A stretch of 64,000 nucleotides of DNA, taken from the NCBI RefSeq assembly GCF_023698535.1, contig NZ_JALJCL010000003.1:1-64000 (forward strand). The letters are read 5' to 3'. Positions 52,102 through 54,023 of the stretch are shown piece by piece. The stretch comes from Halorientalis regularis (GTDB taxonomy: Archaea; Halobacteriota; Halobacteria; Halobacteriales; Haloarculaceae). A program made the translations under genes and the position numbers. The first letter of the stretch is position 1, and each line of letters begins with the position of its first letter. The notes under the pieces are model-generated. The model was not told where the DNA came from. It saw nothing but the letters and a program-made list of their open reading frames with translations, and did no database searches.

Positions 52102-53859
52102 CTAGTCCGGCGAGAACGAAAAGGCCGGTCCGTTCGAATCGGTGCCGAAAGCGAAGTCCGCACCACCTGCGTCCGTGCCGAGGTCGAAGCCGGACCCGCC
52201 GGTGTCGTCACCGAACCCGAAGGACGGCGTGTCCGAGTCGGTCTCGAAGCCGAACCCGGACCCGCCCGCGTCGCTGCCGAACTCGAACGCCGGTCCGCTC
52301 GCGTTCGTCGCGAAGTCGAAGCCGGAACCACTGCTCTCGGTGTCGAACTCGAACGCCGGTCCACTCGACCCCGACTCGTTGAACCCGTCGAACGACCCGT
52401 TGGTCTCGTTCCCCATTCCATCGAACATCCCACCGCTCGAATCGTTGCCTGCCTCGAACGTCGGATCGGAGTCCGTCGAGTCGTTGCCGTCCCCGAACGT
52501 GGGGTCCGAGTCGCCGGTGGTCTCGTCGGTCCCGCCCCCGTCGGTCCCACCGTCGGTTCCGCCCCCGTCGGAGGTGTTCAGCGACGGGTCGACGGTGAGG
52601 ACGGTCGAGGCGGCCGCGTCGCCGCTCCGGACGGTGGCGGTATAGCTCCCATCGGCGTCGGCGCTCGCCGTCCACACGAGCGTGAGCGACTGGGTCGCGC
52701 CGGCGGCCACCGAGACGAACGTGTCGTCGACGGTCGCGCCGTCGACGACGAGCGAGACCGGCTGGCTGACCGTTTCGTCACGCTGGTTCGTCAAGGACAC
52801 GTCGACGGCGACCGTGCCGCCCGGCGCGACCGGATCGGACGTACCGGTGATCGCGACCGCGAGCGGTGCCCGGGACGCGTTGCGTTCGGTGAGGGCGAAG
52901 TCGGTCTCCGTGGTCCGGCCCGCCTGGACGGCGACCTCGCTGGTGGTCGGCTGGTAGCCGTCGGCGTCGGCGACGACCGTGTACGTGCCTGCGGCCATCG
53001 TGAGGTCGAAAGCGCCGTCGGCACCGGTCGAGGCGGACATCGTGCCGTCCAGCGTCGTCACGGTGGCGTTCGGGATCGGCGTCCCGTTCTCGTCGGTGAC
53101 GGTACCGGCGATTCCCCCGTCGGCCCGGTCGAGCGTGAAGTTCCGCGTCAGCGTCTCACCCGGTAAGAGCGAGACATTCGTCACGCGGAGCTCGTACGCG
53201 ACGCTCCCGGCTCCGAGGTCGTACTCCCCCGGGTCGACGGAGAGCTGGTAGTTCCCGTCGGCGGCCGGCTGTGTGCGAGCTACGTACTCGTCGGGGAACC
53301 CGGCGGTGTCCGCGAACCCGCCGGGCTGGCGCAGGTCGACCAACACCGAACTGATCGGCTCGCCGTCGCTGTCGGTCACCGTCCCCTGGATCGTCGCGGT
53401 CACCGTCACGGTCACGTCGACGGTCGTCGTCGTGTTGGCCGTCACGTTCACCGACCGTGTGGCGACCTGCTCGCCGTCGACCGACACCGCGAGCGTGTAC
53501 GTCCCGGTCTGCACCGCGACCGCGTACCCCCCGGTCGCGTTCGTCGTCGTCGCCGCCGGGCCGACCGAGACGGTCGCATCCGCCACCGCCGCACCACTGC
53601 CGTTCGTCACCGTCCCCGTGACGCCCCCGATGGTAATCCCGTCGGTCGTGTCCGTACCGTTCGTCCCGTCAGTCGTGTTCGTGTCGGTCGTGTTCGTCGT
53701 GTCCGTCGTATTGGTCTCGTTCGTCTGTATCGTCCCGAGCGACGCGTCCGCTGCGTCGGCTCCTGTCACGGCTGTCCCGCCGACAGCACCCGCAACCCCC
53801 ACGGCTGCGATAGCGAATGTGACGACGGCAACCACTGCTGCGATCCGTATCTCCCCCAT
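52102..53859 (-). CDS. Secreted protein with CnaB-like domains and FxF repeats
   Basis: A 585-aa exported protein. A Sec signal (IRIAAVVAVVTFAIAAVGVAG) is followed by a Thr/Asn tract full of N-x-T glycosylation sites. Three carboxypeptidase-regulatory-like beta domains follow (GVTGTVTNGSGAAVADATV; TIQGTVTDSDGEPISSVLV; GIAGTVTDENGTPIPNATV). A CARDB-like domain comes next (AVAITGTSDPVAPGGTVAVDVSLTN). The last about 83 residues are 11-residue units beginning F-x-F. No C-terminal PGF anchor or TM helix is seen. It is probably released or bound to the cell surface. The ATG at 53859 is preferred over a GTG at 53868. Confidence 0.82.
   Translation of the reverse strand: MGEIRIAAVVAVVTFAIAAVGVAGAVGGTAVTGADAADASLGTIQTNETNTTDTTNTTDTNTTDGTNGTDTTDGITIGGVTGTVTNGSGAAVADATVSVGPAATTTNATGGYAVAVQTGTYTLAVSVDGEQVATRSVNVTANTTTTVDVTVTVTATIQGTVTDSDGEPISSVLVDLRQPGGFADTAGFPDEYVARTQPAADGNYQLSVDPGEYDLGAGSVAYELRVTNVSLLPGETLTRNFTLDRADGGIAGTVTDENGTPIPNATVTTLDGTMSASTGADGAFDLTMAAGTYTVVADADGYQPTTSEVAVQAGRTTETDFALTERNASRAPLAVAITGTSDPVAPGGTVAVDVSLTNQRDETVSQPVSLVVDGATVDDTFVSVAAGATQSLTLVWTASADADGSYTATVRSGDAAASTVLTVDPSLNTSDGGGTDGGTDGGGTDETTGDSDPTFGDGNDSTDSDPTFEAGNDSSGGMFDGMGNETNGSFDGFNESGSSGPAFEFDTESSGSGFDFATNASGPAFEFGSDAGGSGFGFETDSDTPSFGFGDDTGGSGFDLGTDAGGADFAFGTDSNGPAFSFSPD
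52105..52353 (-). repeat. 33-bp coding repeat (11-residue FxF units)
   Basis: Seven full units and a final partial unit in strict 11-residue register: FEFDTESSGSG, FDFATNASGPA, FEFGSDAGGSG, FGFETDSDTPS, FGFGDDTGGSG, FDLGTDAGGAD, FAFGTDSNGPA, then FSFSPD. Less regular F-containing units (FGDG, FEAG, FDGM, FDGF) continue upstream. In DNA each unit keeps a GAA.TCGAA.GCCGG core on the plus strand. Confidence 0.9.
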
Positions 53860-54023
53860 AGTGTTCACTTAATTTCTATATTTTCTGCTTAAAATTTTTC
53901 TGTCTGTTTTAATTATAAATTCGTGTCTCGTTCCCGTCGCTCGGGTCGTCGGGACAGCCCCCAGCACCGGCGCTGTCGTGTCGAGTCACGGTTTTTAAGC
54001 TACCCGAGATGGGAGGGGAGTGT

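Follow-up and report, generated by a model that had tools for sequence, protein, structure and literature searches.

A secreted Halorientalis protein that ends in an FxF repeat tract, a candidate self-associating terminus with relatives in the same genus

What might a periodic, phenylalanine-rich tail do at the end of a secreted haloarchaeal protein? The window analysed, a stretch of 64,000 nucleotides from Halorientalis regularis (G000), encodes on its minus strand (as for all features below) a 585 amino acid protein, P0001, that is predicted to be secreted (52102-53859 with the stop codon; coding part 52105-53859, stop TAG at 52102-52104). A possible archaeal TATA element, TTTATAAT (53912-53919), was picked out by eye 53-60 nt upstream of the ATG. 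By sequence inspection, residues 1-25 (53785-53859) form a Sec-type signal peptide with A-G-A ahead of the likely cut and with no twin arginine and no lipobox. This is the only strongly hydrophobic stretch in the hydropathy profile, and there is no C-terminal membrane anchor (the top 19-residue hydropathy past residue 40 is 1.23).

The mature protein begins with a T/N/D-rich stalk (aa 45-75, 53635-53727) with N-glycosylation sequons at residues 47, 50, 56, 61, and 67; there are 21 sequons across the protein, many of them in the T/N-rich stretch close to the N-terminus. Pfam PF13620 matches the protein in three stretches (E 5.5e-37), which gives three CarboxypepD_reg-like domains: the first two have approximate boundaries (aa ~78-156, 53392-53628; aa ~157-247, 53119-53391), and the third (aa ~248-326, 52882-53118; best stretch 250-324) has an AlphaFold pLDDT of ~60-80 and matches carboxypeptidase D in the PDB by sequence. 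A fourth domain appears to be a CARDB-like Ig domain (aa ~331-427, 52579-52869), based on a beta-sandwich at ~332-411 in the AlphaFold model and on tblastn alignment of region 331-427 to domains of CARDB type in other proteins of haloarchaea; Pfam makes no CARDB call in P0001. The original prediction was of a glycosylation-rich stalk plus three CnaB-like domains. Its sequon-rich stretch and its three domains stand, with the domains assigned by Pfam to CarboxypepD_reg, and the fourth, CARDB-like domain was missed. Overall, the sequence predicts a secreted rod of Ig-like domains that is probably glycosylated. The body is similar to that of archaeal CARDB/carboxypeptidase-regulatory-like secreted proteins, which are common in the order, but no FxF tract was seen in those matched outside the genus, whereas P0001 has one at its terminus. 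A plasmid tblastn returned CarboxypepD_reg matches only. T-rich stalks with many sequons are also found on the secreted PGF-CTERM/archaeosortase substrates of haloarchaea; this identity was rejected, as P0001 has no PGF motif, NCBIfam match, or C-terminal transmembrane segment.

The last 83 residues, starting at F503, are an FxF tract that runs to the free C-terminal end (52105-52353). It consists of FEFDTESSGSG (52321-52353), FDFATNASGPA (52288-52320), FEFGSDAGGSG (52255-52287), FGFETDSDTPS (52222-52254), FGFGDDTGGSG (52189-52221), FDLGTDAGGAD (52156-52188), FAFGTDSNGPA (52123-52155), and the partial unit FSFSPD (52105-52122). Seven full units plus a partial one had been predicted in a strict FxF, 11-residue register; the units and the register are as described, except that the sixth unit has Leu in its second slot (FDL). 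Seven of the units, counting the partial one, therefore have strict FxF, and no more than five of them follow one another without a break. Degenerate units were also expected upstream, and these are present, next to the folded domains (52354-52497; F455, F468, F479, F490, and F493). They are of FGDG, FEAG, FDGMG, and FDGFN types, and the F-x-G-I-G type also occurs in orthologs of P0001 and in a CARDB-containing family described below. When the tail was shuffled 20,000 times, seven FxF in one register never appeared (the best shuffle had four), nor did a run of five. Residues 431-585 are 12.9% phenylalanine, versus 1.6% for residues 1-430. They include 33 acidic and no basic residues, and 16 of the acidic residues are in the 83-residue tail, which also has no basic residue. 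RTX nonapeptide repeats are likewise Gly/Asp-rich C-terminal tandem repeats of secreted proteins, but they have a period of 9, the GGxGxDxUx pattern, and a calcium-bound beta-roll, whereas the period here is 11; with no PF00353 match (Pfam E up to 10) and no GGxGxDxUx pattern in the tail, this identity was rejected. The tail has no significant match in the PDB or Pfam (E up to 10) and matches no known repeat family. An antifreeze-protein match in the PDB (5ix9, E 0.39) was taken as chance.

One alternative account is that the tail has no specific function and is a low-complexity acidic linker expanded by replication slippage in a halophile. The DNA of the units bears on this. Codon differences among the seven full units are most frequent at third positions (112/231, 48%, versus 73/231 at first and 76/231 at second positions), which indicates that the repeat is not a fresh DNA duplication and rules out fresh slippage as the sole cause. 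Phenylalanine is found in slot 1 of all seven units (the lead codon is TTC every time) and in slot 3 of six. The protein pattern has thus outlasted the divergence of the DNA. Slippage would also leave unexplained the enrichment of a costly aromatic residue in an otherwise F-poor protein.

Comparison within the genus gives evidence on both sides. Syntenic orthologs are found in G004 (73% identity), G007 (70%), and G005 (62%). A C-terminus of variable noise that lacks the register in close relatives had been named beforehand as a result that would refute the original prediction. Two of the three orthologs (G004 and G007) keep the register intact, each with four full units and a partial one; their C-terminal ends, FEFPSD and FDFSPD respectively, compare with FSFSPD in P0001. 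The G005 tail is built mainly of 12-13-residue FDTG units with a single F, with a few FxF close to the end. The copy-number comparison that was called for, made here across species, shows that full units vary (seven in G000, four in G004, four in G007). When the G000, G004, and G007 tails are aligned, F is invariant at 10/10 F positions and other columns are invariant in 14/47 cases. The body of the protein has a dN/dS of 0.41-0.50 and the aligned tail one of 0.35 to 0.95, so overall constraint on the tail, spacers included, is weak. We suggest a mode of tail evolution in which stickers are held while spacers and copy number are loose. Presence of the gene varies across the genus: at the syntenic site it is absent from G002 (L288) and G006 (L289), where the flanking genes, a DUF460-like gene and an alcohol dehydrogenase, directly adjoin, and P0001 is thus dispensable. 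Variable copy number, loosely conserved spacers, the upper dN/dS values, and the empty sites fit a functionless linker. The invariance of every aligned F in three species, a register beyond chance, and units that have diverged in DNA do not.

Undescribed relatives of the P0001 tail exist within the same genus. By pattern searches of genomes and translation of the loci, we found F-dyad, acidic, often P-x-F-punctuated tracts in two further secreted families, unrelated to P0001 and to each other. Proteins of the first (family 2) have a signal peptide, an N-terminal F-dyad tract on the mature protein, CARDB with or without CarboxypepD_reg, and a cysteine-containing C-terminal domain. Tract-bearing members are encoded in G000 (three), G002, G004 (two), G005 (two), and G007, and some members have no F-dyad tract. 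There is also a partial tract-bearing member in Halorientalis pallida (L128), which comes from a genome-collection pattern scan in which unrelated F-rich open frames are abundant among the matches listed. Over its best-covering stretch, this H. pallida contig shares 86-94% DNA identity with the eight genomes placed here in the genus, compared with 83-84% for three other genera, and we assign the eight to Halorientalis on that basis. The C-terminal domain (last ~235 aa) had no Pfam match in the three proteins scanned (L093, L094, and L102), and among 96 genomes of the taxonomic family, domains of this type are found in this genus only. Two of the H. regularis members are tandem paralogs of 1022 and 710 aa, both with N-terminal F-dyad tracts (L093, G000:C6:74000-82000), and in H. 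pallida the homologous gene is arranged divergently from genes for ribosomal proteins and RNA polymerase. The other family (family 3) comprises Tat-signal proteins of G002 and G005 that combine a cysteine domain with an (FEFDVDDEEPE)n tract at the C-terminus; the tail is absent from homologs in other genera, among those readable as protein. Its second slot may be F, I, or M and its third alternate slot V or I (FDFDVDEEEPE, FDIDVDEGEPR).

Across these sibling tracts, 11 is the commonest spacing (65 of 143 gaps), with a range of 9-16 except for two gaps of 3, and 109 of 159 units have a proline two residues ahead of their lead F. In a few proteins the dyad is WW. A 792-aa family 2 (CARDB) sibling (L100, G005:C1:2711500-2719500) has an acidic N-terminus of SPWWEDD type in which FxF has been replaced, and a G004 Tat-signal protein, a 372-aa open frame (L306, G004:C47), has the C-terminus GGWWDDD...GGWWEDD...DDWWD. 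These few cases suggest that aromatic dyads in acidic termini matter, rather than FxF alone. From the sequences, the P0001 tail appears to be the C-terminal copy of a reusable terminal module at the level of the genus.

The two types of unit are ordered within the tracts. Each of the 12 tracts that contain both has its FxF units closer to the free end and its F-x-G(-I)-G or F-x-T units farther from it. The permutation p is < 0.05 for 10 of them and higher for those of the G005 ortholog (0.11) and Halorientalis pallida (0.26). As tracts of the same family are related to each other, we count this polarity as two mirrored cases and not twelve independent ones. The cases are family 2, where the tract is N-terminal, and P0001 with its orthologs, where it is C-terminal, and in both the F-x-G(-I)-G units are beside the folded domains. 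As the order is kept relative to the free end and not from N to C, we infer that simple transfer of a tract would not yield it. That such tracts recur at free ends in three secreted families that are unrelated, two of which have the polarity in common, is further evidence against a functionless linker, and we consider that account improbable.

A second alternative is that the tail is a multivalent recognition peptide, in which each F-x-F, often after P-x, would be a linear motif for a specific folded partner (the S-layer, another secreted protein, or the Ig domain of a sibling by strand addition), so that the protein is docked or retained at the surface. A free terminus would suit the threading or capture of a peptide, the proline two residues before the lead F looks motif-like, and the lack of a C-terminal membrane anchor or PGF-CTERM match leaves room for another means of retention. 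Nucleoporin FxFG repeats bind folded receptors, according to references given in PMC9918544. A single stereospecific pocket is hard to reconcile with WW dyads in siblings, a period that ranges over 9-16, and a free residue between the F's, and we think this explanation somewhat unlikely, if the most plausible of the alternatives.

The third alternative is ordered beta-structure, with each unit a short strand (F-x-F-x-T/V/I) and a turn, stacking into a beta-solenoid or a cross-beta (amyloid-like) tip. The alternation of hydrophobic and acidic residues, the F/I/M and V/I slots of family 3, and the one Leu in P0001 would be expected of such strands. In the AlphaFold models, the tail has a pLDDT of 31-42 within the full protein (four-sequence alignment) and of 37-42 alone (three-sequence alignment); from these shallow alignments neither model shows a repeat fold, and the model of the tail alone has one isolated hairpin-like strand pair. 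The strand pair may be counted in favor of the ordered structure. Against it are the low pLDDT of both models, the drift in unit length within tracts, the high charge and the Gly/Pro content, which disfavor tight stacking, and the lack of a PDB or Pfam repeat family match. An ordered tip therefore seems the least probable account, and the models, at this alignment depth, weakly suggest that the tail is disordered. The original prediction had left the choice among cross-beta, beta-solenoid, and FG-type low-complexity sequence. The FG-type part fits best; amyloid or beta-solenoid is unsupported, given a pLDDT of ~40 and no repeat fold from shallow alignments and the variable unit length of the sibling tracts.

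We favor a fourth reading, to which we give a probability of roughly 40%: a disordered free end of aromatic stickers and acidic spacers that self-associates in molar salt, like FG repeats by analogy and not by homology. The best reading of the data is still a surface-type protein that is secreted and has a self-associating tail, and the earlier interpretation is supported to that extent. The paired phenylalanines, every ~11 residues, would be the stickers, and the acidic and small polar spacers would hold the chain soluble and flexible. Molar salt would screen the charges and strengthen hydrophobic contacts. Tracts on P0001 and on sibling proteins, whether N- or C-terminal, could then cohere reversibly and cross-link surface or matrix proteins or neighboring cells. 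The sticker model is supported by F that is invariant in the alignment while spacers and unit number vary, by F-dyad tracts at the free ends of families 2 and 3, by the polarity of FxF to the free end, by WW in place of FxF, and by the tail having no AlphaFold fold. We infer cohesion, a matrix or cell-cell role, and salt dependence by analogy with FG domains.

Like the nucleoporin FG domains (FxFG/GLFG; Nup98, Nsp1), the tail is a hydrophilic, low-complexity and apparently disordered tract in which short F motifs recur at regular intervals. The spacing of ~11-13 is near that of an engineered 12-residue GLFG repeat, and part of the units contain FxFG tetrapeptides (FEFG, FGFG, and FAFG). The tail differs in being prokaryotic, secreted, and strongly acidic in its spacers, where Nup98-type spacers are charge-poor, and in lacking nuclear transport receptors. 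The PDB and Pfam searches gave no significant match that would point to homology with eukaryotic FG domains. Per-repeat cohesion of Nup98 FG domains goes up by ~30 J/mol per 100 mM NaCl (PMC9579204), and FG cohesion is raised by shorter spacers and FSFG motifs (PMC9918544). An extracellular FG domain in trophinin is proposed to mediate homophilic adhesion (PMC8311347). Trophinin is similar in having FG-type repeats in an extracellular region, but it is an animal membrane protein with a sequence that is unrelated as far as known and a role that is partly hypothetical.

The main objection to the sticker model comes from the same system. Nup98 cohesion at ordinary salt requires that negative charge be absent (PMC9918544), and the P0001 tail has its 16 acids in 83 residues; we assume that these charges are screened at 3-4 M salt. 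The model is also weakened by the mostly single-F FDTG tail of the G005 ortholog, by the tail dN/dS of up to 0.95, and by the dispensability of the gene. In addition, disorder is predicted from alignments of three or four sequences, and the comparisons are of related tracts within one genus.

A broader version, which we offer as doubtful, is that Halorientalis evolved an acid-spaced, FG-like cohesion code: aromatic-dyad termini (FxF, some WW) on several unrelated exported proteins would condense only because the medium is molar salt, forming a phase outside the cells, or a glue between them, that would dissolve when diluted. If the sticker model is right, aromatic sticker-spacer cohesion reaches beyond the charge-poor FG domains of eukaryotes to extracellular archaeal proteins that are strongly acidic, and high salt would substitute for charge depletion as the condition of cohesion. 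The tract-bearing and tract-free species, the copy-number differences, the FDTG and WW variants, and the mirrored placement form a natural test set for sequence features. The work also names a module confined to this genus and a C-terminal domain that has no Pfam family.

No secreted FxF tract was found outside the genus among the loci read, from the matches listed for 392 genomes (95 genera) of the order; part of the listed matches were read at the protein level. The claim that no described haloarchaeal family has such a tail was borne out in Pfam, NCBIfam, and the PDB, and a literature search on surface proteins of Halorientalis and on FG repeats in archaea found no matching paper. By eye, from translated loci, FxF matches elsewhere in the order mostly looked like acidic or Ser/Asn-rich repeats read in another frame or from the opposite strand. 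Three in-frame acidic matches, in G183 (L250), G220 (L059), and G242 (L256), are N-terminal extensions of KaiC-like ATPases; these are presumably cytoplasmic and convergent and were set aside. Such extensions, in other haloarchaeal families, have FGFG-type repeats every ~12 residues.
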